From contig NC_053044.1 in assembly GCF_003473485.1 (NCBI RefSeq), positions 2,616,501-2,680,500 of the forward strand: a DNA stretch of 64,000 nucleotides, given 5' to 3'. This DNA is from Medicago truncatula (Eukaryota > Streptophyta > Magnoliopsida > Fabales > Fabaceae). Positions 2,870-58,869 of the stretch are shown one piece after another. The position numbers were made by a program, and so were the translations under genes. Position 1 is the stretch's first letter; each line of letters begins with the position of its first letter. Below the pieces are notes generated by a model. It did no database searches. It was not told the DNA's origin and saw only the letters and a program-made list of their open reading frames with translations.

Positions 2870-3952
2870 CTTCAAGTTGAAAATATTTAATACCATTGTC
2901 CCTTAAAAAAATAATTTGAAACCAAATATAAAACTCTTTACCGACATCATTTTTTATCATTTTATATAAATATAATAAAAGATATTTTGTAATTAGGGGA
3001 TACGATATTTTTTATCTTCAATTTTTCCTTTTTTTTTTTTTTTTTTTTTTTTTTTTGTCAAGCTTCAGTTTTTCCTTTTAACAAATCTTTCTTCTTATTT
3101 ATGTTGGTTTTAAGCCATTTTTTAATCACTATTTGCATACCTTTTCATCTCTTTTAATTTAAATTAGTGATTTTATATATATATAGTCTTTGGTGTAAAA
3201 ATCACACTATTATATAGTACTGTGGTTTTTTTTTTTTGAAAGGATATAGTACTGTGGTATTATTATTATTTTTTAGTACTTTTATATGTTAGTTCTAAAA
3301 TGTCTTTCCAAATATCTACGTAGAATATTTCAGTTTGGTGCATGTGTAGAAAAGTTTTTTTATTTTTTATTTTGAAAGAGCATGTGTAGAAAAGTTGTAC
3401 ACCAATACAAACTAAATCATCATTTCTCTTAATTGAATACATTTTCAAACATACTATTGTTTTGTTTTTTGAAGGAAACATACTATTGTTTTGTTGTCTT
3501 AGAAAATAAAATTTGATTTTTTATGCTATTTTTAATTTTAAAATTAACACAAAACCAACAGCATTTAGTGTTCTCGTGACCAAATTGCAATTTTCCTTTC
3601 TCATGATTTGGTCTTTTTTTTGTTAGTTTGACGTGTGCAATGATGTCAGGCTTTGCAGATCCAATCATGTCTCTTTCAACACAATTTAATGTTACATGAA
3701 TGTTGTTATTTTCTTCTCATAGCTCTATAATTGTCCTTTCAGTTGTGTGACAAATCTTTTTTTTTTTTGAAGGAAAGTGACAAATCTTTGTTATTGTCTT
3801 TTGGTTCAAAGAACAAGTGCCAATTTATTTTCTTGTATTTTTTGTGTCTTTCTGATTAGTCTTTTTCATATTGCAAATAAAAAAAAAAGAATTCGGTGAA
3901 GAGGGTCATAACATAACACAAACATTGTAACCATTGTTTTGTGTTGAAAAAA
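2870..3952. promoter_or_regulatory. 5' flank of the first ZIFL gene
   Basis: AT-rich, with long T runs at 3030-3056 and a tandem-like repeat of catactattgttttgtt around 3450-3495 (two copies). A second local duplication repeats gtgacaaatctttg at about 3747 and 3777. No certain TATA box was picked out. Confidence 0.4.
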
Positions 3953-11082: not shown

Positions 11083-12095
11083 AGAGTTTTTCTATTCACA
11101 TCCTATATATTTCTGGTTACACCCAATTTTTTTAAAAAGTTTTTGATAATATCAAAATTGTCCTTTTAAATAAATTTTCTTAAAATCTTGATTTCATTCA
11201 TTCTCACTCTAAAATTCCACTCTCTTTCACCCACCAACGATCAAACAATTCTGATATTCAATTAATCTCTACGGAAAATTAAAGAGTGAATCAAAACATT
11301 TTTCATTCATACTCGATTGCATATAAATAAGTGATTTTTTTCTTCTTTTTCAATAACGCTGGTTTCAATTTTCTTCTTCTTGTTCAACTGCACGACAATT
11401 TCAGTTTTACATTGTTGAGGTTAACTTAAATTCAGTTTAAGTAGGTTCATGTAAACTTAGTTTACATAACCTACTTAAACTGAGTTTAAGTATGTAGATT
11501 TAAACTCAGTTTATGACCTACTTAAACTAAGTTTACATGTACATACTTAAACTGATATTACGTATAATCATTGAACAAGGTTGAACTTTTAGATGTACAC
11601 TTAAACTCAGTTTACATGACCTACTTAAACTGAGTTTACATGACCTACTTGAACTGAGTTTAAGTATGTGTAATTAAACTCAGTTTACATGAGTTACTTA
11701 AACTTAGCTTACATGATCTACTTAAACTGAGTTTAAGTATGTACACTTAAACTTAGTTTACATGACCTACTTAAAATAAGTTTACATGTATATACTTAAA
11801 CTGAGATTACGTAGAATCATTGAACAAGGTTGAACTTTTAAATGTACGCTTAAACTCGGTTTACATGAACTACTTAAACTAACTACTTAAACTGAGTTTA
11901 AGTATGTACACTTAAACTCGGTTTACATGACCTACTGAAACTAAGTTTACATGACCCAAAGAGGAATTTTAGGGTGTAACCAAGAAAAAAGGAAGATGTT
12001 TTTTGAAAATTAAATTTTATGAAAGGATAATTTTATCATTTTGAAATGCAACCAAGATTAAACAGGGTGTAATTAGAAATACTCTTTATTTTATT
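11083..12095. mobile_element. TIR element filled with a palindromic minisatellite
   Basis: Outer parts form an imperfect inverted repeat of about 95 bp. The left side is gagtttttctattcaca, then ggttacaccca and aaaattgtccttt. The reverse complement of the right side reads gagtatttctaattacaccc, then ggttgcat and aaaattatccttt. Between them lies the array at 11418-11950. No ORF is present, so this is a non-autonomous element, possibly Mutator-like. Confidence 0.5.
11418..11950. repeat. Minisatellite of tttaaactcagttta-type palindromes
   Basis: About 25 units of roughly 20-24 bp are built around the near-palindrome cttaaactgagtttaag, alternating with tttacatgacctactt spacers. A higher-order repeat is also visible: the stretch ending actgatattacgtataatcattgaac at about 11550-11577 recurs as actgagattacgtagaatcattgaac at about 11800-11826, about 250 bp later. 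Spacers are too short and too similar for CRISPR, and the host is a plant. Confidence 0.85.
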
Positions 12096-29131: not shown

Positions 29132-30289
29132 ATGGCGGAGGGTAGAAGCGACGGGGAAGAAGATGACCCAAATGACATCGTCCCTACTTCTCTCACACTC
29201 ACGCCCGAAACCATAACATCTCCGCCGCCGCTTCCGATTCTTCCGTTTGATGTTCTGACTGACATTCTCTGTATGCTTCCGGTGAAATTACTCGTGCAGC
29301 TTCGGTGCCTTTGTAAGTTCTTCAATTCACTTATTTCTGATCCTAAATTCGTAAAGAAGCATCTTCAATCGTCAACTAAGCGCCGCCACCTTATGCTAAC
29401 AACTATTGATCATCAACAACAGTTTGTTATGTATGATTCTCCAATCCCTTCGCTTTTTTCTACTTCAACCATTGTTGCACAAACACAACTTTACCCTCCT
29501 AATGGAGATACCTACGCATCAGTGAAGTGCTCTTGCGATGGCATCTTTTTGGGTATGTTCTCTCATACTTCTTATTTCTTGTGGAACCCTTCCATTAGAA
29601 AGTTTAAGTTATTGCCTCCATTGGAAAATCAAGACAAAAGTGCTCCTTTTACCATAATTGTTCCTTATACCATAAGCTTTGGGTATGATTGTTTCATTGA
29701 TAAGTATAAGGTCATTGCTGTTTCTTCCAAAAATGAAGTTTTTCTTTATACTTTAGGGACTGATTATTGGAAAAGAATAGACGACATCCCATATTATTGC
29801 ACAATCTGTAGATCGGGATTATATGTCAGTGGTGCTGTTAATTGGTATGTACATGATGAATCAGATAGTTCTTTGTACTTCATTCTTTCTCTTGATTTAG
29901 AAAATGAGTCATATCAAGAGCTTTACCCACCTGATTTCGAGGATGAGTCATATTCCTGGACATTGGGTGTGCTGAGTGATTACTTGTGTGTCTTTGCAAC
30001 TAGTGATATGTTTTTGAATGTTTGGATTATGAAGGAATATGGAAATCAAGAGTCTTGGACTAAATTGTGCAGTGTTCCTGACATGCACGATCACGGTTTC
30101 CAAGCATCTGCCGCTGTATATATTTCTGAGGATGATCAACTGCTCTTGCAGTGTTACGAGTTTGACAGTGGCGAGGAGAAGTTGGTTGTCTACGATTCCA
30201 AAACTGGTATTTTTAATATTCTTGAGTTTCAAAACAACTATGAACATATATCCCAAAAAGTCTACATTGAGAGTTTAATATCACCTTAA
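29132..30289 (+). CDS. F-box protein with F-box-associated interaction domain, member 1
   Basis: Single-exon, 385 aa. The F-box lies at about residues 36-78 (LPFDVLTDILCMLPVKLLVQ, then LRCLCKFFNSLISDPKFV), the usual Skp1-binding helix set. It is followed by the F-box-associated pattern CDGIFLG, then YFLWNPSIRKFKLLPPL, SFGYD, KVIAVS, LGTDYW and VSGAVNWY, ending KLVVYDSKTG and ESLISP. Plant proteins of this type are substrate receptors of SCF ubiquitin ligases in nucleus or cytosol. The target cannot be inferred. It heads an F-box cluster whose members differ in acidic/Pro-rich N-termini. The first in-frame ATG at 29132 is used and agrees with the paralogues' starts. Confidence 0.88.
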   Translation: MAEGRSDGEEDDPNDIVPTSLTLTPETITSPPPLPILPFDVLTDILCMLPVKLLVQLRCLCKFFNSLISDPKFVKKHLQSSTKRRHLMLTTIDHQQQFVMYDSPIPSLFSTSTIVAQTQLYPPNGDTYASVKCSCDGIFLGMFSHTSYFLWNPSIRKFKLLPPLENQDKSAPFTIIVPYTISFGYDCFIDKYKVIAVSSKNEVFLYTLGTDYWKRIDDIPYYCTICRSGLYVSGAVNWYVHDESDSSLYFILSLDLENESYQELYPPDFEDESYSWTLGVLSDYLCVFATSDMFLNVWIMKEYGNQESWTKLCSVPDMHDHGFQASAAVYISEDDQLLLQCYEFDSGEEKLVVYDSKTGIFNILEFQNNYEHISQKVYIESLISP

Positions 30290-31710
30290 GCTGGGATTCA
30301 ACTGCAACATATACATGGTTAGTTTTATGTTTATGTTATTTATTTTATTTTATGTCTGCTTTGATTCTTAGTGACTTGTTGGATCATTGTTAATCAATGG
30401 TTGATGGAATCTGTAGGTTGAAAATTGCTTTTTATTTTCAATAGTTTGGTTAATTTGAGTTGTTACTCTCACATCTTGCACTATATTTTAAATAGTTCAC
30501 TCTCTTATTGGGTGAGACTAATTTCTAGAGTGTGTGACCCACATAAATTTTACCCAATAATAGGGTGAATAAAAGAGTGTTCCTAACACTCCTCTTAAAG
30601 TTTCCCATGACATTTTGGGATTAACATGGTCATTCTCTGTGTTTGTGATTATCTTAATAGACTTTATTTTTTTATACACTAGTCTAGTATGATAGTGTTG
30701 ATTACTGCAAATTAATAATTATATAATTAAAGTATATATGGCTCATAGTACAAGTGAGTTGCATCTCCACTCAGGACAATGAGTTTGGTTTGGTTTAATT
30801 GTTTTAAGTGTCCCAGAAGATAGGAATATAGGATTCATTTTCTTAGATTTTATTCCTTTTTTTTGTTTTCTCATTGTTTTTACAAGGTTTTTTTCAATCT
30901 CAATAATCTTCTAGAAATGCTAGTTTCTAGAATTGCAAGATGATTTGACTTTCTTGCATCTATTGGTTGGTTTGAACTTGAATCATATCATATGTTAGTT
31001 TTCTGCTCACTCTTAGAAATACCTTTACTATGAAATTGGCTTACTCCTGTGCTCCCTAGTATATAGTTCTCGCATTTGCAATTTCCATTAAAGTGTATCC
31101 CTCTTCTCTTTTATATATATGAAACTCATAGGTTGCTATTTCATGCTCTAAAACATGTACCAATTCAATTCTCCAAACCCTGCAGTTTTAAAATCAGCAC
31201 ATTGTTTTGTGAAGATCAGGTCTTTTCTTTCACCACTCGTTCTTTGTATTATCATAGTCATACACTTCACATGTGTGTGAATAATTCATATTTAGCTTTT
31301 TGAAACTTATAGTGAGTTTTAATGCAATTCTATGCCTCGTTTTCATTTTTCTTGTTTTGAGAATTAGAAGAATGCTGCATATTTGAGTATTTTCCAAGAT
31401 AATGAAAAGGTGAGGTTGTTAACAGAATGGAAACATGTTTATCCTTGCGAGTGCTTGGGTATGTGGCTTAGTGCTCATTCTAGTTGACTGCTCTGTAGAG
31501 CTTCCCCCATACATGTTAGTCATCAATTTTTTAAACAAATTAACATGTTTATTAATTTCTTGGTAACTTTGTGTTGCTAGTGCTGAATTAATCATATTGT
31601 ACATTCAGTTTTAAGTTTTGAATTATGGGTTACGATTACCACTCGGTTTTGACGGTAATTATTATTTGAAACATGTTGGTTTCCATTTTGACATAATATT
31701 GCCCTTTTCG
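30290..31710. repeat. 3' flank of F-box gene 1, duplicated downstream of F-box gene 3
   Basis: Matches, in reverse orientation, the 42780-41080 flank. Shared landmarks are ctcacatcttgcactatat with taaatagttc (30467), gatagtgttgattactgca (30692) and cttggtaactttgtg (31559). It lacks the Stowaway MITEs that interrupt the other copy. No gene was recognised; a short ORF at 31076-31303 has no domain. Confidence 0.7.
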
Positions 31711-33446: not shown

Positions 33447-34653
33447 ATGGCGGACAGTAGAAGCGACAGGGAAGAAGACCCAAATGACATCGTCCTTACT
33501 TCTCTGTCACTCACCGCCGAAACCATAACATCTCCGCCGCCACTTCCGACTCTTCCGTTCGATGTTCTGATTGACATTCTATGTAGGCTTCCGGTCAAGT
33601 TACTGGTACAACTTGGGTGCATCATTAAGTTCTTTCATTCTTTAATTTCCGGTCCAAAATTCGCAAAGAAACCATCTTCGTATATCAACAAACCACCACC
33701 TCATGATAGCCTTGAGGAATGATTTGGATGAGTTAGTTATGCATCATTCCCCAATCCCCTCGTTTTTCTTCTTCTTCTTCTACATTTGTTACACAGACAC
33801 AAATTTACCTTCCTAATACTTTCACATTTCGACGTAACTATGTCAGTGTCACATATAGACATAACAATGTGACCGTAACGTGCTCTTGCGATGGCATCTT
33901 TAGCGGTGTGCTCAAAGCTGGTTCTTATTTTCTGTGGAACCCTTCCATTAGAAAATGTAAGTTATTGCCCCCTTTGGAAATTCCAGGCGAACGTGTTCTT
34001 TTCTACGTAAGCTTCAACTATGATCATTTCATTAACAATTATACTTTGCCCCCTTTGGAAATTCCAGGCGAACGTGTTCTTTTCTACGTTTTCTTTTCTA
34101 CGTAAGACTCGAAGACATCCCAACTAATTACCACATCCATAGATCACAAATATTTTTGAGTGGCACTGTAAATTGGTTGGCAAGCAATAATTCAAGTATG
34201 TATTTCATTCTTTCGCTTGATTTAGAGGAGTCATATCGACAGCTTTGGCTACCTGATTTAGAGAAGGAGTCGTATCGACAACTTTGGCTACCTGATTTCG
34301 AGAATGAGAATGAAAATGGTCCGTGGATCTTGGATGTGATGAGGAATTGCATGTGTGTCTTTGCAACTAGTGATGTGTTTTTGGATGTTTGGATTATGGA
34401 GTATGGAAGTGAAGAGTCTTGGACTAAATTGTACAGTGTTCCTAACATGCAACATCGGGGTTTAGAAGTCTATAAAGCTTTATATATTTCTGAGGATGAC
34501 CAACTACTCCTGCAGTGTTATGAGATTGAAAGTGGAGATATGAAGTTGGTTGTTTACGATTCCAAAAATGGTACTTTAAATATTCCCGAGTTTCAAAACA
34601 ACTATGAACAGATATACCCAAATGTCTACATTGCGAGTTTGATATCACCTTAA
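33447..34653 (+). pseudogene. F-box protein, member 2, broken by frameshifts
   Basis: The ATG at 33447 starts MADSRSDREEDPNDIV, close to member 1, with an F-box (LPFDVLIDILCRLPVKLLVQ). The frame fails at 33722. The homologous reading resumes at 33869-34105 (CSCDGIFSG, SYFLWNPSIRKCKLLPPLE) and again at 34156-34653 (VNWLASN to IASLISP). Two internal direct duplications are visible: about 45 bp at 33966 and 34048 (ccctttggaaattccaggcg), and about 38 bp at 34228 and 34264 (SYRQLWLPD twice). The region between LPPLE and NWLA is missing its homologous middle. Transcription cannot be excluded, but a full-length protein is not encoded. Confidence 0.85.
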
Positions 34654-35345
34654 GTTGGGATTCATCTGCAACATATATATGGTTAGTTTTTGTCTGTGTT
34701 ATTTATGTATTATGCCTAATCTGATTCTTGGTGACTTGTTAGATCATTGTTAATCAATGGTTGATGGAATCTATAGGTTGAACATTGCTTTTTATTTTCA
34801 GTAGTTTGGTTAATTTGTGTTGTTGATTCTCTCACATCTTGCACTATATTTTAAATAGTTCGCAATCATCAATTGCATTAAAAGGTTTGTCATTTGATTT
34901 TCTAAGATTTGCGTTATGAGTTAGGTGTAATAATGCCTGCTTAGTGTTGCACAAATTTTTTAATGTTTGTTTCAAATATTGCACAATGGATTATGAACTA
35001 AACTGAATATGTCATATAATACTATTGTGATGTCAGTTTTTAAGGAAGATAATTCATTTGTTTATTGTAATGTCTTCTCTCCAACCCAATCTTCTGTACC
35101 ACCGACGATTTTTTCTTTTGTCTGCTGCTACACTAGACTCAACATAAGTTATATAATACTAGATGTAGCCTTTTGACAAATTGGATTTCTTCACTTTCAA
35201 CCTAGTCAATTTTCCCTCTGAATCTGATGGTGTGAACTGTTTTTTAGACTATAACATATGCAAACAACCAATGAATTATAGTAAACAATGTACCGAAGTG
35301 TAGAATTGTAAATGGATAGTTATCTTATAGTTATGTATTGCCCAC
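34654..35345. repeat. 3' flank of F-box 2, duplicated downstream of F-box 4
   Basis: Matches 57560-56990 in reverse (gattcatctgcaacatatat, then gttgatggaatctataggtt). No gene. Confidence 0.6.
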
Positions 35346-35848
35346 GTTAGGCAGAAGGCTCCAGTGCAGAGATAGACAGCTCCTCCAAATTTTCTGAAAG
35401 CTAACATGGGAAGGTCACTTGGGGTTTGCTAATTCGAAACCACGACAGAGAGGTGCTCTTTGCAGCGAAATGAAGTGCAGATTTGATGGCAGATTGACTC
35501 TTGGCAAAAACTCTGGGTCTAAGATGGGGGGGTATCCAATCAGTTCTAGATTTACAATTTAGTAATGTTGTGTTTGAATTAGATGCATCAGCTGTAGTTA
35601 AGTGTATCAACAATAGCTAGTATAAGCCCTTTTATTAGTGACTGTCATGATTTTGTTTGGTAATTTAGATGGTTGTTCTGTTAGTTTTGTTAATCGCTCT
35701 TGTAATGTAGCTGCTCATGAGCTCGCTCTGGCTGCAAAAACTCTAGGATCATGTACTTGGGTGGGGAATGCCCTTCTTAAAGTCTGGTCTGTGTTCTCTC
35801 TTGGTTTGTTCTAGTAATGAACTAGTGGATTGTCAAAAAAAAAAAAAA
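35346..35848 (+). mobile_element. 5'-truncated LINE with poly(A) tail and 19-bp target-site duplication
   Basis: atagttatgtattgcccac at 35327-35345 recurs with one change (atagctatgtattgcccac) at 35849-35867. The insert ends in about 14 A residues. Its reading near 35660-35800 is VSFVNRSCNVAAHELALAAK, the end of a LINE RNase H domain. An empty site is present in the paralogous flank near 56985. Confidence 0.9.
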
Positions 35849-39120: not shown

Positions 39121-39904
39121 TCTTTTGAAGATGAAGAGTAGATGAAAAGTCTTAGTTTCTTGACATATTCAGAGACTCCATTTGGATTGGTGGTAAAAAA
39201 TGTCTCGTAGAAATACGACTCATGTTTTATAGAAATATCTATGAGTTAGCCATAGTAAAAAATGCCTTTTGAGCTTGTAGTTTTCTTCTCTGTGCAAGGT
39301 GAAACTGTTTGGAATGAACTGGGACTTGGGACAAAAAATTTCCTAATTGTATGGAACTCAATTCTTCATTGTTTATTGTCTACATACTTCCATAACATCC
39401 ACAATAGCACCAAATATTGATTGATCAATTTGTTTGGTCAATACCGAAAGACACGACACCCTACTGAGTTTTCTTGCTAGGAAAATACAAATACTTAAAC
39501 TGATCTTTTAAGACAATATTTTCCTAAACTATCCGTAACACTAAAGTGCATGTTATAACGAGGACCCGTCAACTGTGAGGTATTTTTAAAAACACGTTAA
39601 AAACACCGTCCAACACCCTCCATTTTTTCCGATTTCATAATCTGAAATAGGTGTTGATGGTGGAAAAAGAAAATTCACAAATCATTGTGTAAACTATAAG
39701 ATCTCTATTCAAAGGTTCAGACAAGCTTATTACGGTGACTTAAAGACATTGACATATCTTGTATTTCTTTCTTCTACTAATATTTTTTCCTTTAAAACCT
39801 AATCAAAATATATTTTTATTTTCTGCAGAAAAATGATTTTAAAAATAAGCTTACACAAACATAACTAAAACATGTAAACTGATTTTTAAATAATCTTAAA
39901 CAAA
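39121..39904. other. Intergenic, nothing recognised
   Basis: AT-rich sequence with no coding pattern. A phrase shared with the hAT/LINE pieces was not found. Confidence 0.4.
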
Positions 39905-41276
39905 CGGGTAACAAATATGTTTTTGCAAGGAAAATACAACATCCAAATGCATTTTGCAATTAAAGAATCCCTCAATTATCCATTTCACTACGCTTCAAAA
40001 TCACACAACCTATCCATGTTCTATCAAGGCAAACAACAGACAATAATAAAGTCAGAGACAGGTTTATCCTATCTATTCCAAACATATAGGTTTTTTACCG
40101 TCTAATTTGATTCCAGAAGAAATAATCAAACAGAACTTAAGAAGTTAAATAACCCTATAACTATTACCCTTTTCAATCCCATCTTTAGCAAAGCTCCAGA
40201 CCACAAAAAGAACCCAAGCAATTCTGATTTTGAATAACCCTTCCATTGAAACAAACAAACACAGCCAACCTGAAAAAGAGACATTCCAACTATTACGTCA
40301 TAAGGAGTACTTTGAGGCTTAAGGTGCAATTAAAATTACAAACACAATAGTGAGACATTATAAGGTAGAACTCGTATGGAAAGGATCTTCACTACCATCT
40401 CAGAAACTATCAATCATATTCGGACCATTTTACCAATGTTATGAATTGTACAATGTGCTGCATGTGTTAAGAATTTAAAAATATTATTTACACAACAATA
40501 TAATGAATATATCTTTGAAGCAGAATTTTAAAACGCCTGCAAATGAAACACCAAAATATAAAAAATTCATTTTCAGATTAATCATTCAACAAGAAGAAAC
40601 CGTTATCTTGTGAATTTCTATCCCTCAAACATTATAAAAAAGCAAGAGCTAAAACATAAAAATCATAATACGCTCCTTGTCAATTTGAATCAGTGCATAC
40701 AATCAATGTTATCAAAATCACGATTTAGATCCAGATCTTAAAAAAGACCATTTGCAGCTTGAAAAATTGAAGTCAAGATTGTAAAAGTAAATCGGGTTTT
40801 TTGTGCAAGGAGCAAGTGCGGCCTCTCATTCTGTCTCTCTCAGTCGCACGCAACAGTGTGGCCATTTTTCTCTAAATTGTGAGTCGCGACTCTCTGCCTC
40901 TCCCTTCTTATGATTCATTCAGTTTCTTTCCTCTAAGTCTCTAACACATCTCTCTAACATTAAATACTTAGCAGCTCGAAAATGAATGCATGGCATGAAT
41001 CATATTAGCATTTCAACTCAGCCAATCAGAAAACTAGACACCACTCAGCAGTAACAACAAAAAAATAAAATCAATCATATGCACAATTAAAAGATCAATA
41101 TTACGTCAAAACAGAAACCAAAATGTTTGAAATAATAATTACCATCAAAACAAACATAGTGGGAATGGTAACCCTTTATTGAAAACTGAATGTACTATAT
41201 GATTAATTCAGCACTAGCAAGGAATAAAGTTACCAAGAAATTAATAACATGTTAATTTCTTTAGAAAACTAATGAC
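39905..41276. repeat. Large duplicated segment, copy A (3' flank of F-box gene 3)
   Basis: Pairs with 47401-48795 in the same orientation and, reversed, with about 33060-31570 behind F-box gene 1. The first 710 bp differ from copy B at about five positions by eye. After about 40617 the difference rises to about one in ten. It contains a conserved short minus-strand ORF (40126-40329) with no known domain. Confidence 0.88.
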
Positions 41277-41351
41277 TAGCAAGGCATAAAGTTACCATAA
41301 TTAAACCCAACAAACAATCCCTCAACACACTTGCAGTATGATTGATAATTA

Positions 41352-41986: not shown

Positions 41987-42794
41987 TAATAACAAACACT
42001 GAGAATGACCATGCTATCCCAAACTGTCATGGGAAAACTGAAGTTTTCAAGATATGAGTCTGTTCTCTCTTGATCTCTAGATAACTAGTTGATTTTATAT
42101 TGTTCAAAAAGAGGATAGAAAGAACCTAGGTTACATGAAAAACCCTATAATTGGACAACTATCATCACCACCAAGAAAATAATAGGCTAATTGGTAAAGA
42201 ATCCTCATTTGATAAATGTAACCATACATCATAAAATAGAAGCTCTGCGAGAATCTTTACGGAGAAAGGACTAATGAGAGCTGACAAGCATCACACATGC
42301 AGAATCTTTACGGAGCAATGAACATGAACATTGAAAACAGTAGGGTGAGGTTCTTCAGGAAAAGGTGAATGAGCATAGAACTTTACGTTACTAAACTCAA
42401 AGTTTGGGCAAGAAAAAAATAAATGAAAAATTTACTCAGTAACTGTGGTTTTAGTTCAGTTCATAATGCATTGTGCAAGATTTGAAGCAAACATTAAGAA
42501 ATTTATGCAACACTAAGCGGACATTGTAACATCTACATCTTATCGCGAATCTTAGAAAATCAAATGACAAACATTTTGATGCAATTAATGATTGCGAACT
42601 ATTTAAAATATAGTGCAAGATGTGAGAGAATCAACAACTCAAATTAACCAAACTATTGAAAATAAAAAGCAATGATCAAGCTATAACTAGTAGATTAATA
42701 ATGATCTAACAAGTAATCAAGAATTAGAGCAGGCATAACATATAAATAACACAGACAAAAACTAACCATATATATGTTGCAGTTGAATCCCAGC
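41987..42794. repeat. 3' flank of F-box gene 3
   Basis: Reverse match to 30290-30630 and in part to 34654-34900. No gene. Confidence 0.6.
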
Positions 42795-43943
42795 TTAAGG
42801 TGATATCAAACTCTCAATGTAGACATTTGAGTATATCAGGTCATATTTGTTTTGAAACTCAGGAATATTCAATGTGCCAGTTTTGGAATCATAAACAACC
42901 AACTTGATATAGCCAGTTTCACCCTCAATTTCACAACACTCCACCAACAGTTGGTCATCCTCTGAAATATATAAAGCTCTACTGGCTTTCAAATTCTGAT
43001 CTTGCAGGTTAGGAATAGTGTACAATTTAGTCCAAGACTCTTGATTTCCATACTCCTTCATAATCCAAACATCCAAATATTCATCACTAGTTGCAAAGAC
43101 ACACAAGCAATCCCTCAACACACCAAAGTCCCACGGATTATTTTCATCCCCGAAGTCAGGTGGGCAAAGTTTTTGATACGACTCGTTCTCTAAATGAAGA
43201 GAAATAATGACTTCGTATGCAAACCAATTAAGAGTGCCACTAACAAATACTCCATCTCCAAAACAAATGGGGTCAGAATATGGAATGTCCTGTATTCTTG
43301 TCCAATAATCAGTCCCCAAAGTATTAACCCTAACTTCATTTTCGTCAGAAACAATAATGACCTTATAATTATCAACGAAGTGATCATATCCAAAGCTTAG
43401 TGTTCTGATAAAATTGTGACTTTCCAAAGGAGGCAATAACTTAAACTTTCTAACGGAAGGGTTCCACAAGAAATAAGAATCATCATTGAGCTGACCACAA
43501 AACACGCCGTCGCAAGAGCACAGCAGGCCCATCCAGAGATGTCCGTTTGTGAGAGTACTAGTAGGAAGGTAAAGTTGTGTTTGTGTAACAATGGTAGAAG
43601 TAGAAAAAGGTGAAGGGATTGGGGAATCATACGTAACAAACTCATCAACATTTGTTAGCATGAGGTGGTGGCGTTTGGTTGCCATACGAAGGTGTTTCTT
43701 TACGAATTTAGGATCAGAAATTAAAGAATTGAATAACTTACAAACGTATCGAAGCTGTATAAGTAATTTCACCGGAAGCCTACAAAGAATCTCAGGAAGG
43801 AGATCAACAGGAAGAGTTGGAAGCTCCAGCGGTGTGTATTTTAGGGTTCCGGCGACCAATCGCCGCCTTTGAGTGTTGGTTGTTTCCTCCGTAAGTGACT
43901 GAGAACAAACGACGTCGTTTCGGTTGTCGTTTCCCTTCGCCAT
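42795..43943 (-). CDS. F-box protein with F-box-associated domain, member 3
   Basis: Single exon. The start is placed at 43943 (MAKGNDNRND), giving 382 aa, because it aligns with the MAQGNEGEDN start of member 4. The open frame extends 30 codons further to 44033, but that part is Ser-rich and unmatched. The F-box is at about 42-86 (LPTLPVDLLPEILCRLPVKL), then CDGVFCG, FLWNPSVRKFKLLPPLES, SFGYDHFVDNYKV, LGTDYWTRIQDIPY and VSGTLNWFAYEV, ending VYIESLISP. It is a likely SCF substrate adaptor, target unknown. It is closest to member 4 (57585-58763) by eye. A transposon with palindrome arrays begins about 120 bp upstream of the ATG. Confidence 0.88.
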   Translation of the reverse strand: MAKGNDNRNDVVCSQSLTEETTNTQRRRLVAGTLKYTPLELPTLPVDLLPEILCRLPVKLLIQLRYVCKLFNSLISDPKFVKKHLRMATKRHHLMLTNVDEFVTYDSPIPSPFSTSTIVTQTQLYLPTSTLTNGHLWMGLLCSCDGVFCGQLNDDSYFLWNPSVRKFKLLPPLESHNFIRTLSFGYDHFVDNYKVIIVSDENEVRVNTLGTDYWTRIQDIPYSDPICFGDGVFVSGTLNWFAYEVIISLHLENESYQKLCPPDFGDENNPWDFGVLRDCLCVFATSDEYLDVWIMKEYGNQESWTKLYTIPNLQDQNLKASRALYISEDDQLLVECCEIEGETGYIKLVVYDSKTGTLNIPEFQNKYDLIYSNVYIESLISP

Positions 43944-44501
43944 TTCTTTAGAACTACGAAAGTGAAAGGGAATCGCGAGAGAACTAGAACTGGATAATAA
44001 GAGAGTAAAGCAACATTGAATGCACTTCGTCACCGAGAGTTAATAACAAAGGGAGAATTGTTCCCACATTTGGTTTGGCTATGCCACACAAGTAAATTAC
44101 ACAAATGTCCCTCGGCAGTTAACTGCCGAAGTTTTTAGGAAACCGGCGGCAGTTAACAGCCGAGGAAAACCTCGGCAGTTAACTACCGAGGAAAATGTTA
44201 TAAGAACAGAACTGCATAGGAGTTTCCAAAACTCCATTGTTGCGTTTTTAATTATCCAAGGTGCAATTTTGAGTCATTTGAAGTCATTACAAGCCAATTT
44301 TAATCACAAAAACAAGTAAGTTTTTTGAATCCTATTGTATTGTTGCTTTGTGGTCGAATTGTATGTTATTTTTTGTTAAATTTTGATTATATTGATTTGT
44401 TGATTTTATGATATGTTAGGATAGTTTAGGTTAGAATGGTTAGAATGGTTAGAATTGTTAGTATAGGTTGAATTGATCGCCATTTTTCTTTTAATGTAGA
44501 T

Positions 44502-44747
44502 ATGTCTCAGAATCAGAATCAGGGTAACATTCACGATGATGAGAAGAAAAAAGAAAAATCACCTATGACGTGGCATGGAATTGTTTGCGATGGTTCCGAA
44601 AAAAAGAAGGGTTCGAAGGTGCCAGTGTACAATCACTCAAGGTTGAGGAGGAGCGGGAGGACATGCTATTTCGGTCCTCAACCAAAACAAGGTACCGCAG
44701 GGACTGTAGCGGACAAGCCGATTGATTTGTGTGACGAGGAAGAATGA
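44502..44747 (+). CDS. Small ORF in Mutator-like element, function unknown
   Basis: 81 aa, starting just after a possible acceptor (taatgtag). Lys/Glu-rich N-terminus (DDEKKKEKSP), a central basic patch (NHSRLRRSGR) and an acidic end (PIDLCDEEE). No domain was recognised. It may be the last exon of a larger gene or element-encoded. It converges with the 45535 ORF across the foldbacks. Confidence 0.35.
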   Translation: MSQNQNQGNIHDDEKKKEKSPMTWHGIVCDGSEKKKGSKVPVYNHSRLRRSGRTCYFGPQPKQGTAGTVADKPIDLCDEEE

Positions 44748-44960
44748 ATGTAATGGCTTTTAATGCCTAATTGTTTTGGATTTTTTTATGTTTTATTTTT
44801 CTGTCGCGCACATTTTGTTTGACATTATGGTATTTAGAATAAAATTGCATTTGGAATAAATAAATTTGAAAACAAAATAAGATAATTATTGTTCCATTCA
44901 AAACAAAATATATGTTATCACATTACATTGCATTACACATTAGATTCTGAAATTTACCTT

Positions 44961-45190
44961 CCAGCTGCAACAATCATCTTACCACTGAATGGGGCAAATT
45001 CAAACTTGCTAAGCAGCAGGAATCCAGTATTCGATAAGCATCTTGAACGCTGGTATTCAAGTGTCAAAAGAATGAGGTGCATTCCTTGACACTTGAATAC
45101 CATTGTCCAAGATGCTCATCGAATACTGGAGTCCTGCCGATTAACAAGTTTGAATTGCCCCATCCAGGGCAAGACAATTGTTGCAGTTGG
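44961..45190. repeat. Long foldback 1 (about 105-bp arms, 18-nt loop)
   Basis: Arm 44961-45067 pairs with 45085-45190 at about 85% by eye. Both arms read, on the same sense, caacaat, then attcaaactt, ccagtattcgat and tggtattcaagtgtcaa. The loop is about aagaatgaggtgcattcc. The length suits a young MIRNA or siRNA hairpin, but transcription is unknown. Confidence 0.85.
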
Positions 45191-45195
45191 AATGT

Positions 45196-45526
45196 GCATT
45201 CCAACCCCAACAATTGTGTTACCTTTGAATGGGATAAATTCAAACCTGCAAAACAACATGACTCACGCATTTCGCCGAGCACTTCATGTTTTCCCTTTGA
45301 AAAGAATAAATTTTTATGAGGCTTGCTTTAGATGATGGTATTCAAGTGCCACAGAATTGAGGTTCAATCCTTGACACTTAATACCTTCATCTAAACCAGC
45401 ATAACAAGAATTTAATATTTTCAAAGGAGAAACATGAGGTGCTCGCGAAATGCTCGAGTCCTGTTGTTTGACAGGTTTGAATTACCCCATTCAAATGAAG
45501 ACAATTGTTGTAGTTGGAATGCACCT
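45196..45526. repeat. Long foldback 2 (about 155-bp arms), related to foldback 1
   Basis: Arm 45196-45352 (tgcattccaac, caacaattgt, aattcaaacctg, gcatttcgc, gatggtattcaagtg) pairs with 45372-45526. The pairs of arms in foldbacks 1 and 2 share caacaatt, tgaatggg, aattcaaac and ggtattcaagtg, so the second is a longer relative of the first. Confidence 0.82.
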
Positions 45527-45534
45527 TACCCTAA

Positions 45535-45882
45535 CTAATGACGATCTTCTAGCGGAATCAAACTTTTGATGATATCTTCAGTTGATCTAAGCAACTTCAC
45601 CCGCATATCGATCCACTGGAACATGCTGTGCTCCCAAAACATGGTCGTCACGTTTTCGTCGTTCGTTAATTCCACCCAAGTGAATGATACTCTCCCATCG
45701 TCGAGCGTTGGACGTTTATACCAAACGTGTTCCACCATCCTTGTGTCTCTGGGGTTGACTCTTTCGTTGAATTCAGTCAGTTTATCCTTGAGACATCTTA
45801 ACGTTACACCAAGGCACCGAACCTTCAAACTCTGAGGTTCTCCGCCGTTGAATTGCGCATGAACGTCGATCCACCCGACCAT
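45535..45882 (-). CDS. MULE N-terminal-like small ORF
   Basis: 115 aa from an ATG at 45882, preceded by a possible acceptor (gtgtag). The open frame extends to 45933. The sequence MVGWIDVHAQFNGGEPQSL, then VWYKRP, SFTWVELTNDENVTTMF and IDMRVKLL recalls the N-terminal (PB1-like) domain found ahead of plant Mutator-like transposases or in stand-alone element genes. No zinc finger or transposase core follows. Confidence 0.4.
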   Translation of the reverse strand: MVGWIDVHAQFNGGEPQSLKVRCLGVTLRCLKDKLTEFNERVNPRDTRMVEHVWYKRPTLDDGRVSFTWVELTNDENVTTMFWEHSMFQWIDMRVKLLRSTEDIIKSLIPLEDRH

Positions 45883-46352
45883 TGTTTTAAATCTACACAA
45901 TAAGAAACTAAAAACAATCAATGAAAAACTCATTCAAACATTTCATCGAACACTTGATGTGCACATTATACATAGAGTCTAAAATTCATAAAAATAACCC
46001 TAAAATTTTAAATCTTATACTCTTACTAAAATAAAAAAATTAAGCATATAACATAAACATCATGCAAATATTTTAACAACATTAATCAACTAACATATAC
46101 CCTAAAAATTAATTATAACATGTAAATCTACTAAAAAATAATAAATGCACTCAAAAAGTAAAAAATAATAACATTTATAACAACTAAAATGTAAGTTAAT
46201 AGCATTATAATTACTTACTTGTGATTTTGTTGAATAAAGTTGGTTGGATTTGGTTGTGTTTTTTAGAGAGATTTTGAGAGAAATTTGAAGAAATTATTTG
46301 GAAGATAAGATGAATAATGGATGAGAGGAAATTCTGCCAGATTTTGTAGAGC

Positions 46353-46470
46353 AGATCCTCGGCAGTTAACTACCGAGGTTTTCCTCGGCAGTTAACTGCA
46401 GCCGGATTTTTCAAAATTTCGGCAGTTAACTGCCGAAGAAAACCTCGGTGGTTAACTGCCGAGGAAAACT
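46353..46470. repeat. Palindrome array, right-hand
   Basis: Four or five copies of the cggcagttaactgccga type (variants ctcggcagttaactaccgag, cggtggttaactgccgag) separated by gaaaacctcgg-like spacers. They mirror the array at 44112-44205. Confidence 0.85.
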
Positions 46471-47020
46471 GAACATCCAAAACTTCACAAAATTCTCAAT
46501 TTCTCTCCAATCTTCGCCAAATCTTCTTTCACGAATTGCAAGCAAATCAACGGGACACTTATATTATATAGTAGTGTGTAGGTTTGACTAGACAACTAAA
46601 ACTTTGTCATTAGTAATAAAATACTACTTCTACACTCTAGAAAAAAAAATAACAATCACGTCTCATTGAAAATTGCTTATTATCAATACATAAAGTTACA
46701 AGAACAAACTTTAATTTTCATGCCGATTAAATCTTCATCATTCTAAAAAACATTTCAATATAATTCTAAATTATTTTGAAAGCCGGATTTTTACACAAAC
46801 GTTTAAAATTCATCATAACGGTTCAAATAGCAAAAAAATATTGGTGCAAATGCACAACTTAATTAAACCAACATTTTTGTACATTAAACAAAGTAAAAAA
46901 AGCCCATAAAATTAAAAATAATGTCATCAAAGTAGAAATATACAAATATACAAATATACATAACTCAATGTGATCAAAAGACTAAAACTAAAAAATAAGT
47001 CCTAAAAAAGAAAAATAGTA

Positions 47021-47399
47021 CTACTGGTCCTGATCCTGCTGATGGTGCCTCCTCCTCGGCCTCTGGGCTCTCCTCCTGGTCAAAATCGGCGCGATCTGCT
47101 CCCTCATATGGGTCATGGCCTCAAACCACTGCTAAGGGGTCATGCTCATGACCTCCTCCTGGCCTAACTGCGCATCAGCGTAGGCAACAGCGCCACTAAC
47201 CATGTCATAGGTGTCAGGCGAGCTTCTCGCCTCATACCGCTCCCATTGGTCTGCAATGATCTGCTCTTCATTTGCAGGCCTCGGAAGATCTCCTGGAATA
47301 GGTGGCAAGATCTGAGGGTGAGACACCCTAGTGTACCATATGACATAGCCATCCGCCACCCGCCATGTATCCTCTCCTGCGTGTGAGTGCGGAGAAACA
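47021..47399 (-). pseudogene. Plant-mobile-domain (phosphatase-7-long-form-like) gene, C-terminal piece
   Basis: The minus frame reads VADGYVIWYTRVSHPQILPP, then PGDLPRPANEEQI and an Arg-rich end RRRAQRPRRRHHQQ. The Y..WY.R.SHP....P pattern followed by a basic tail is typical of plant-mobile-domain proteins annotated as phosphatase 7 long-form homologues. A TAG stop after EEVMSMTP interrupts the frame at 47132-47134. The 5' part is cut off at the junction with the duplicated segment at 47399. A pseudogene by both criteria. Confidence 0.65.
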
Positions 47400-47400
47400 G

Positions 47401-48795
47401 GTAAGAAATATGTTTTTGCAAGGAAAATACAACATCCAAATGCATTTTGCAATTATAGAATCCCTCAATTATCCATTTCACTACGCTTCAAAATCACACA
47501 ACCTATCCATGTTCTATCAAGGCAAACAACAGACAATAATAAAGTCAGAGACAGGTTTATCCTATCTATTCCAAACATATAGGTTTTTTACCGTCTAATT
47601 TAATTCCAGAAGAAATAATCAAACAGAACTTAAGAAGTTAAATAACCCTATAACTATTACCCTTTTCAATCCCATCTTTAGCAAAGCTCCAGACCACAAA
47701 AAGAACCCGAGCAATTCTGATTTTGAATAACCCTTCCATTGAAACAAACAAACACAGCCAACCTGAAAAAGAGACATTCCAACTATTACGTCATAAGGAG
47801 TACTTTGAGGCTTAAGGTGCAATTAAAATTACAAACACAATAGTGAGACATTATAAGGTAGAACTCGTATGGAAAGGATTTTCACTACCATCTCAGAAAC
47901 TATCAATCATATTCGGACCATTTTACCAATGTTATGAATTGTACAATGTGCTGCATGTGTTAAGAATTTAAAAATATTATTTACACAACAATATAATGAA
48001 TATATCTTTGAAGCAGAATTTTAAAACGCCTGCAAATGAAACACCAAAATATAAAAAATTCATTTTCAGATTAATCATTCAACAAGAAGAAACCGTTATC
48101 TTGTGAATTTCAATCCCACAAATATTATCAAAAAAGCAAGAGCTAAAACATAAAAACCATAATACGCTCCTTGTCAGTTTGAAATAGTGCATACTATTAA
48201 TGTTATCAAAATCGCGATTTAGATCCAGATCTTATACAAGATCATTTGCATCTCGAAAAATTGAAGTCAAGATTGTAAAAGTAAATTGTGTTTTTTGTGC
48301 AAGGAGGAAGTGTAGCCTCTCATTCTGTCTCTCTCAGTCACATGCAACAGTGCGGCCATTTTTCTGTAAATTGTGAGTCGTGACGCTCTGTCTCTCCCTT
48401 CTTATGATTCATTCAGTTTCTTTCCTCGCTTCCGTAATGCGTCACTAACACATCGCTCTACCAACACACCAGACATTAAATACTAAGCAGCTCGGAAATA
48501 AATGCAAGGCATAAATCATATTGGCATTTCAACTCAGCCAATCAGAAAACTAGACACCACTAAGCAGTAACAACAAACAAAAAAAAATCAATCATCATAT
48601 GCACAATTAAAAGATCAAATATTGCATCAAAACAGAAACCAAAATGTTTGCAATTATAATTACCCTCAAAACAAACATAGTGGGAATGGTAACCCTTAAT
48701 TGAACACTGAATGCACTATATGATAAATTAAGCACCAGCAAGGCATAAAGTTACCAAGAAATTAATAACATGTAAACTTCTTTAGAAAATTGATG
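47401..48795. repeat. Large duplicated segment, copy B
   Basis: Pairs with 39905-41276. It begins abruptly within the plant-mobile-domain piece at 47399. The ORF at 47619-47822 is identical in length to 40126-40329. Further weak similarity to the F-box 3 flank continues to about 49230 (tactatgagtcgtatatac). Confidence 0.88.
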
Positions 48796-49244
48796 ATAAG
48801 CATATGCAGCGTTCCTTCTTAATCTCAAAACCAGATAAGTAAAAATGAGGCATAGAATTGCATTTCAATCTCACCAATGGTGCAAGAACCTGATGCTCAC
48901 AAAAAACAGTGTTTGGTGATTTTAAATTTGCAAGGTCTAGAGAAATTATTAGCCAAAAAGTAGCATGATATGAAACAAGTTTAAATTAACCAACATATGC
49001 AAGAGAGTCAAACCATTGCAATACTAGAAACTAGCATTTCTAGAAGGTTAACTAATATTGAAAGAAAACCTGTTAAACAATAAGAAAAAAAGGATTCTAA
49101 AATCTAAGAAAATGAATCTTCTACTCCTATCTTTGTTGTCTCGTTCCATATAATTAAACCCAACCAAACTCATATTGTCCTAAGCAAACATGCAACTCAA
49201 CTGTACTATGAGTCGTATATACTTTTTATTTATTTATTTTATTT

Positions 49245-56585: not shown

Positions 56586-57584
56586 TAAAAAAATGGCTTT
56601 GAAGTCAAACTCATAAACTGAGTGCTCATCTTTATCTTTTACTTTAGTTCTATATTCACATTCTGCAGTGCACAGGATGTAGACCGAGACTTATGTTTTG
56701 CACGGTTTAGCATAAGTTTTCCCTTCCAATAAGGATAACCGAAACAGTAAGAAAATTAAAACAGAATCAAACGTCCTTGTATATCACCAACAAAATCTTT
56801 CAACTGTGTCTTATGAATCAACATTAAACCCTTTAGAGTATTTCATCACTAATTTATCCCTACCACTTCAAATCAAGACTTCTCAAAAATAAAATAAAAT
56901 CAGTGTCAGTGTCATTCAGAATAAAATAACTGAAAACAAATCAAATACCCTCTTCCACCTGGAGGATCAAGTAATGAAAATGTGGGATATACATAACTAT
57001 AAGATAACTATCCATTTACAAATCAACACTTTGGTACATTGGTTATTTGCATATGTTATAGTCTAAAAAACAGTTCACACCATCAGTGGGAAAATTAACT
57101 AGGTTGAAAGTGAAGATCCAATTTGTCAAAAGGCTACATCTAGTACTATATAACTTATGTGGAGAATCATCGGCGGCATGAGATCATTCAACTGTGTCTC
57201 TTTTTCAGTATAGCGTGTCTTTTTGTTACAAGTTCTACAATAATTATCTTCTTTAAAAAAATTACATCACAATAGTGTTATATAACATATTCAGTTTGGT
57301 TCATAATGCAGTGTGCAAGATTTGAAGCAAACATTAAAACATTTGTGCAACACTAAGCAGACATTATTACATCTAATTCATAACGCAAATCTTAGAAAAA
57401 TCCAATGACAAACCATTTAATGTAATTCATGACTAACCAAAAAATAAAAAGCAATGTTCAACCTATAGATTCCATCAACCATTAATTAACAATGATCTAA
57501 CAAGTCACCAAAATCAGAGCAGGCATAACATATAAATAACACAAACAAAAACTAACCATATATATGTTGCAGTTGAATCAATGC
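56586..57584. repeat. 3' flank of F-box gene 4 (paralogous to 34654-36690)
   Basis: Reverse match to the F-box 2 flank. It lacks the LINE found at 35346-35848, giving the empty site tagttatgtatatcccac (reverse strand) near 56985. Confidence 0.7.
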
Positions 57585-58763
57585 TTAAGGTGATATGAGA
57601 CTCTCAATGTAGACTTCGGCATGTGTATGTTTATAGTTGTTTCGAAACACAGGAAAATTCAATGTGCCAGCTTTAGAATCATAAACAACCAACTTCATAT
57701 CGTCACATTCAGCCCAATCCTGATGACATTGTACCAATAGTTGGTCATCCTCTGAAATATATAAAGCTCTATCGGCTTCTAAATCCTGATCTTGCAGGTT
57801 AGGAATAGTGTACAATTTAGTCCAAGACTCTTGATTTCCATACTCCTTCATAATCCAAACATCCCAATATTCATCACTACTTGCAAAGACACACAAGCAA
57901 TCCCTCACCACACCCACGTCCCACGAATTATTTTCATTGTCGAAATCAGGTAGCCGAAGCTTTTGATACGACTCCTTCTCTAAATCAAGAGATATAATGA
58001 CATCATATGCAAACCAATTAACAGTGCCACTAACAAATAGTCCATGTCCAGAAATGGGGTTAGAATATGGAATGTCCTTTATTCTTCTCCAATAATCAGT
58101 CCCCAAAGTATTAACACTAATCACTTTTTTGAAAGAATGGGCAACAACCTTATAATTATCAATAAAATGATCATATCCAAAGCTTAGTAATGACCATTTG
58201 TGATTCCGCAAAGGAGGCAATAACTTAAACTTTCTAATGGAAGGGTTCCATAAGAAATAAGAACCATTATTGAGCTTACCACAAAATATGCCATCGCAAG
58301 AGCTCATCATCAGGTCGATGCAGTGATGTCCATTTGTGAGAGTATTAGGAATGTAAAGTTGTGTTTGTGTAACAACGGTAGAAGTAGAGAAAATTGAAGG
58401 GATTGGAGAATCGCACATAACTATGTCACGATCATAATAATAATCATAATCACAAGAATTTGTTAGCATGAGGTGGTGGCGCTTGGTTGACATACGAAGA
58501 TGCTTCTTTGCGAAATTAGGATCAGAAATAAGAGAATTGAAAAACTTACAAACGCATCGAAGCTGTACGAGTAATTTCACCGGAAGCCTACACAGAATCT
58601 CAGGCAGGAGATCAAAAGGAAGAGCTGGAAGCTCCGGCTCCGGTGGGCATGTTAGGGTTCCGGCGGCCAATCGCTGCCTCTGAGTGTTGGTTGTTTCCAC
58701 CACGAGTGAGTCAGAAGAATCGACGGCGTTTCGGTTGTCCTCACCTTCGTTTCCTTGCGCCAT
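57585..58763 (-). CDS. F-box protein with F-box-associated domain, member 4
   Basis: Single exon, 392 aa, starting MAQGNEGEDN. The F-box is at about 47-90 (LPALPFDLLPEILCRLPVKL, then VCKFFNSLISDPNF). Next come CDGIFCGKLNNGSYFLWNPS, IRKFKLLPPL, SFGYDHFIDNYKV, LGTDYWRRIKDIPY and VSGTVNWFAYDV, ending VYIESLISP. A probable SCF ubiquitin-ligase adaptor, closest by eye to member 3. A TIR element starts about 110 bp upstream of its ATG. Confidence 0.88.
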   Translation of the reverse strand: MAQGNEGEDNRNAVDSSDSLVVETTNTQRQRLAAGTLTCPPEPELPALPFDLLPEILCRLPVKLLVQLRCVCKFFNSLISDPNFAKKHLRMSTKRHHLMLTNSCDYDYYYDRDIVMCDSPIPSIFSTSTVVTQTQLYIPNTLTNGHHCIDLMMSSCDGIFCGKLNNGSYFLWNPSIRKFKLLPPLRNHKWSLLSFGYDHFIDNYKVVAHSFKKVISVNTLGTDYWRRIKDIPYSNPISGHGLFVSGTVNWFAYDVIISLDLEKESYQKLRLPDFDNENNSWDVGVVRDCLCVFASSDEYWDVWIMKEYGNQESWTKLYTIPNLQDQDLEADRALYISEDDQLLVQCHQDWAECDDMKLVVYDSKAGTLNFPVFRNNYKHTHAEVYIESLISP

Positions 58764-58869
58764 TTCTCTAACTCAAATGTAAAGTGAATTGTTTGCTCGC
58801 GAGAGAAATAAAGCAGAAACAGACGCTCCACCCTAGTTTCACGTATCTCGAATTTTTTTTGTAGATTTT

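Follow-up and report, generated by a model that had tools for sequence, protein, structure and literature searches.

Why would a plant transposon carry two long hairpins, side by side, between genes that point toward each other? The question is raised by a locus in the window (the whole stretch of 64,000 nucleotides of Medicago truncatula DNA analysed here), for which the original prediction had proposed a hairpin-siRNA or proto-MIRNA locus born inside a mobile element. The explanation we prefer, with a probability of about 0.4, is that the foldbacks are a fixed and functional part of a Mutator-like element (MULE) family, serving as a selected RNA structure at the 3′ end of one of its genes, ORF B, between convergent genes. 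The features of the locus are as follows.

44053-44104, plus strand: left terminal inverted repeat of the Mutator-like element (GAGAATTGTTCCCACATTTGG...), from locus alignments and a comparison of ends and 9-bp duplications
44105-44192: palindromic CGGCAGTTAACTGCCGAGG repeats upstream of ORF C, with a match to Rfam MIR2629
44502-44747, plus strand: ORF C, 81 aa, no Pfam match
about 44958-45069, plus strand: hairpin 1, left arm (whole foldback 44958-45200)
45052-45095: hairpin 1 apex and loop, the longest strongly conserved block in 19 copies
about 45085-45200, plus strand: hairpin 1, right arm, from arm-versus-arm alignment and folding
about 45197-45352, plus strand: hairpin 2, left arm (whole foldback 45197-45528)
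about 45363-45528, plus strand: hairpin 2, right arm, from arm-versus-arm alignment
45535-45933, minus strand: ORF B, 132 aa as listed, no Pfam match (searches used 115 aa from the ATG at 45882)
46356-46465: second palindromic MIR2629-like array, upstream of ORF B, from inverted repeats and sub-gathering Rfam matches
47021-47383, minus strand: truncated 3′ end of the plant-mobile-domain (PMD) gene, with a stop codon as well (ORF end 47132)

The two foldbacks lie in tandem as described, between a plus-strand ORF ending at 44747 and a minus-strand ORF ending at 45535, and they are related to each other, since arms compared across the two hairpins are 61-64% identical. After reversal, the arms of hairpin 1 agree at 94 of 109 aligned positions (86%) and those of hairpin 2 at 126 of 151 (83%); the foldbacks are real, and the self-complementarity of 85-90% estimated by eye comes down to 83-86%. 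Folding of 44930-45545 yields two long hairpins on each strand, with energies of -323.5 kcal/mol (plus) and -362.8 kcal/mol (minus). Dinucleotide shuffles (n=20) have means of -136.7 and -155.3, respectively, and none of the 20 is as low as observed (z scores -27.0 and -33.6), which confirms the long hairpin shape. By folding, either strand could form the hairpin precursor expected of a MIRNA gene, and the long near-perfect foldback is of the kind that a hairpin-siRNA locus would transcribe and dice. Peptides translated from one arm, and those of an ORF running through the hairpins, had no Pfam match. The apex and loop of hairpin 1 are 97-100% identical over four neighbouring 11-base bins in the 19 copies, against a region mean of 90%, and may be a contact site; outside the apex, four single 11-base bins also reach 98-99%.

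Twenty 10-kb loci around close copies were fetched and compared with the window. The alignment starts at 44045-44059 in 12 of them and further in for the other eight; in 18 it stops at 47383, and in L025 and L030 it stops earlier. The window copy is a remnant, the element being broken off at 47383. Exact 9-bp target duplications flank the element in 12 of the 20 loci, L033 has one with a single mismatch and L039 is doubtful, while the pattern was not found in the other six; the window copy cannot show a duplication because its right end is lost. In L023, L029, L030, L037, and L038 the left end reads GAGAATTGCTGTTCCCACATATAG, with few-change variants in the other duplication-flanked loci (13 in total), and the right ends of these 13 elements are the inverse of the left ends, again with few changes. 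Element length is 5.9-6.1 kb in nine cases and 3.6, 7.3, 8.0, and 8.4 kb in the remaining four. From the 9-bp duplications and inverted ends, we classify the carrier of the hairpins as a high-copy MULE, in agreement with the predicted location inside a mobile element.

One full element, L034, encodes two PMD-gene ORFs that match PF10536 (E 4e-29 and 7e-15), along with ORF B, the double hairpin and a convergent ORF C. No transposase ORF was listed within L034 and L021 (the two copies with ORFs listed), nor was a transposase found among the listed ORFs of the window copy. Over 20 copies, pN/pS is 0.45 for ORF C and 0.74 for ORF B, with in-frame stops in 2 and 6 copies, respectively.

Transposases do occur in some long relatives. 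When all 150 listed ORF B places were compared with 27 of 150 listed transposase places, picked by eye for their nearness, a MULE transposase domain was found 3.2-4.6 kb from five of the ORF B places, convergent in all five. The locus L067 (735-3026) encodes a 763-aa ORF with the MULE transposase domain PF10551 (E 2.5e-26), followed by a 114-aa ORF, palindromic repeats, a homologue of ORF C and the start of a hairpin; this locus was fetched in part, and the remaining hairpin and ORF B fall outside the fetched stretch. The C-terminal part of its transposase has a weak match to OTU-like cysteine proteases that is below the cut-off (E 0.011), and the 114-aa ORF (3602-3946, between transposase and ORF C) has no Pfam match and does not match ORF B significantly. 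Given a transposase in some long relatives and its absence from L034 and L021, the window-type element looks like a derivative that lost this gene.

Terminal inverted repeats together with 9-bp target duplications, which MuDR also makes, place the element alongside MuDR and other MULEs. In maize MuDR, mudrA and mudrB are convergent (PMC3440606), as are the transposase and a second gene in some of the long relatives. The present family differs from MuDR in having a long foldback pair between the convergent genes and a separate PMD gene. MULEs that hold a plant mobile domain, as this one does, have been described as PMD-transposase fusions in grasses and Amborella, and the authors of that work speculate on an anti-silencing use of the PMD (Ikeda et al., 2017; PMC5418596). 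Unlike in those fusions, the PMD ORFs here are separate, and L034 and L021 have no transposase ORF in the element.

Another inverted repeat of Mutator-type sequence is Mu killer of maize, proposed as a source of hairpin RNA (PMC3440606). Mu killer is one rearranged locus in which an inverted duplication makes both arms copies of mudrA, whereas the pair described here is spread through a family. A silencer of the Mu killer type was considered and set aside: in a comparison of the arms with the full element L034, the best match outside the hairpins was not below E 0.02. Among the genes of the element, as represented by L034, no source of the arms could thus be detected.

We then turn to the distribution of the pair. 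A DNA search with the hairpin region gave 425 candidates, the best 40 of which (the window itself aside) are 95-98% identical to the window; these indicate copy number and are no test of presence, because the hairpin region was the query. A genome search with ORF B gave 807 candidate places, of which the best 150 were scored, and 26 relatives were chosen by their diverged ORF B (79-87% protein identity), regardless of hairpins. Sorted by eye, 15 of the 26 have both hairpins (including L047, without the hairpin 1 apex, and L048, with an internal insertion), one has both but interrupted (L062), five have a single hairpin (L044, L053, L057, L059, and L066), and five have neither intact (L045, L050, L051, L054, and L055), although L051 retains a tip. 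Since the hairpins are also present in relatives, they escape the objection that they might be missing from other copies. Alignment A2, used below, combines the window with 5 of the 20 close loci and 13 of the 26 diverged loci, giving 19 rows; it superseded a 21-row alignment from which L047 and L057 were removed, and excludes L047, L048, and loci with one, interrupted or no intact hairpin. Between its two main clades, 13% of the arm sites of hairpin 1 and 22% of those of hairpin 2 differ, and in each of the 19 copies Watson-Crick pairing of either hairpin's arms is 81-90%. Judged from these sequences, the pair is an old, family-wide part of the element and not a new-born locus.

Comparison with known microRNAs gives a similar picture. 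Within 44940-45540 every Rfam family stays below its gathering score, the best being MIR7504 with 32.5 bits against 83. The idea of a proto-MIRNA born inside the element is therefore not supported, for a pair that is old and family-wide, with arms of no recognisable origin in the element's genes and no such Rfam match. The sole known microRNA match is MIR2629 (RF04063, gathering 60), at the palindromic repeats: the first array scores 60.5 bits on the minus strand (44105-44173) and, below gathering, 51.7 bits on the plus strand (44098-44196), and the second scores 55.6 bits on the plus strand (46345-46410) and 49.7 bits on the minus strand (46414-46475), both also below gathering. The central hairpins resemble transposon-derived plant MIRNA genes, including MIR2629, in being foldbacks of transposon sequence. 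They differ from them in that their stems are longer and duplicated, and the match to MIR2629 itself lies outside them, in the palindromes that precede the ORFs. What is annotated as MIR2629 may be this transposon's palindromic repeats rather than a regulatory gene. According to a Medicago small-RNA study, some miRBase entries, for example miR2630, are likely false (PMC4212123). Short words (12-16 letters) taken from the apex of hairpin 1 retrieved no plant paper from main texts, the eight matches being animal or human studies by title, and the hairpin pair was not found described in the literature searched, chiefly freely available main texts.

These results bear on whether the diced small RNAs are themselves what is selected, for instance against a host or rival-element transcript, which would make the locus a long-hairpin siRNA or MIRNA locus. 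Stems of more than 100 bp that fold on both strands would suit such a role, as would the 44 bases of 97-100% conservation at the hairpin 1 apex, and the element family could be a small-RNA source, because its palindromes match MIR2629. We nevertheless regard this reading as rather doubtful. A fixed target would be poorly served by arms whose divergence between clades is 13% in hairpin 1 and 22% in hairpin 2, and the arms have no homology to the element's genes. In a usual miRNA the conserved block does not include the loop, whereas here it does, and the hairpins belong to no Rfam family at gathering score.

Has the pairing been kept, or is it what remains of an old near-perfect inverted duplication that decays slowly in a successful element? 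Pairing at the tips of the tree is 0.842 (19 copies), compared with 70-71% under neutral simulation (HKY assumed, kappa 3), and 0 of 120 simulations reach it. On internal branches, with root branches left out, 57.5 pairs were broken, 30 restored and 2 compensatory, against simulated values of 80.5, 14.1, and 0.4. Neither the broken nor the restored value is reached in any of the 120 simulations; the two compensatory changes are reached in 7 of 120 fixed-tree simulations, which is a point against a selected structure. On terminal branches, 213 broken, 34.5 restored and 5.5 compensatory pairs stand against 242, 33.7, and 2.6 simulated, and the somewhat low number of broken pairs (213 vs. 242, sd 14) is a further point against a selected structure. 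When every simulation was given its own inferred tree, neither the internal restore/break ratio nor the compensatory count was reached in any of 100, but the terminal restore/break ratio was reached in 46 of 100. The ratio differs between internal and terminal branches with an odds ratio of 4.5 (p 4e-9, counting root branches and treating events as independent), and in a control in which partners were slid by -2 and +2 the internal/terminal contrast had no consistent direction. Complementarity was thus kept along the inner branches, where elements were still being copied, and the balance of broken and restored pairs on terminal branches looks neutral. Restorations recur at some positions, so their number may be inflated by tree error or exchange between copies. 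The lower variability of paired than of unpaired sites (1.3% vs. 4.6%) was dropped as a biased measure, pairing having been defined on the same consensus.

A tree-free comparison separates the two hairpins. Pairing of hairpin 2 lies above the neutral ceiling from a perfect ancestral palindrome in all 84 cross-clade pairs (bootstrap excess 0.023-0.101), and that of hairpin 1 in only 6 of 84. The pairing of hairpin 2 has accordingly been maintained, and upkeep is only suggested for hairpin 1. A passive relic fits hairpin 1, and it would also account for terminal changes that mostly break pairs and for a hairpin region whose conservation in close copies does not clearly exceed that of the flanks. 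Hairpin 2, which pairs better than even a perfect ancestor would leave it, disfavours such slow decay, as do the internal-branch results, and as a general explanation it is distinctly unlikely. Since selection has apparently kept at least one hairpin able to fold, that hairpin probably does something useful for the transposon.

Upkeep could also occur in DNA: if template switching or gap repair let one arm correct the other as the element transposes, complementarity would be copied rather than selected. Palindromes are prone to self-templated repair, and confinement to inner branches suits a transposition-linked process as well. Between the clades, hairpin 2 has a multi-base replacement that is coordinated on both arms (about 45280-45296 and 45427-45443). 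Below the root, on the other hand, most inner-branch restorations are isolated one-base changes that occur on either arm, making long conversion tracts less likely, and the terminal restore/break ratio is as simulated. We consider mutual correction of the arms unlikely and infer that the selected entity is RNA. The G-U pairs lean, without significance, toward the ORF B transcript: on internal branches, 26 would form on the ORF B strand and 14 on the other (p 0.08), or 21 to 12 without root branches, compared with 66.5 to 70.5 on terminal branches; in a set of 21 close copies the events number 23 and 20. Strand-specific wobble was therefore rejected as proof of RNA-level selection.

The layout of the locus also distinguishes the two genes. 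Read-through from either side had been predicted, and it remains plausible for ORF B, whose stop codon is six bases from the right arm of hairpin 2. ORF C is not equally likely to transcribe the hairpins, because about 210 bases with AATAAA/ATTAAA motifs at 44838, 44855, and 44859 separate it from hairpin 1. On the ORF B strand, the motifs beyond the hairpins are at 44792 and 44759, and given the adjacency and six-base gap, an ORF B mRNA ending at either would carry both hairpins as its 3′ UTR. Hairpin 2 itself contains such motifs at 45411 (ORF B strand) and 45305 (ORF C strand), where transcripts might terminate; use of that at 45411 would shorten the ORF B 3′ UTR.

Because of this 3′ UTR position together with the convergent layout, we favour a structured 3′ end. 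The hairpins could protect the ORF B transcript, and could part it from the opposing transcript of ORF C or, where present, the transposase, so that antisense overlap stays limited. Any siRNAs diced from the stems would then be a host response or by-product; such small RNAs are plausible in view of what plant dicers do.

Transposon hairpins are usually regarded as accidents that expose an element to silencing. In the present family, at least one long hairpin was apparently kept foldable during the spread of a large transposon family. A more ambitious interpretation, and in our judgment an improbable one, is that the family maintains by selection its own long-hairpin RNA, active in counter-silencing or gene regulation alongside the PMD gene, whether as a dicer decoy, as a protected 3′ end or through small RNAs against host factors. 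As a single genome supplies copies in large number (807 candidate ORF B places) along with a partner gene for the PMD, whether elements profit from double-stranded RNA becomes directly testable.

The surroundings of the element contain further repeats. Two direct copies of a 1.4-kb stretch (39902-41281 and 47395-48802) are 93.7% identical; between them lie an F-box gene (42795-44033, minus strand) and the truncated transposon, and the right copy begins 12 bases past the transposon break. Relatives of the F-box gene region lie on both strands (29205-30498, 33514-35348, 42450-43950, and 57290-58770) and, at 71-84% identity in the longer matches, constitute a local gene cluster. A tandem array with periods of 24, 49, and 73 bases and units like ACTTAAACTGAGTTTACATGACCT occupies 11424-11956.
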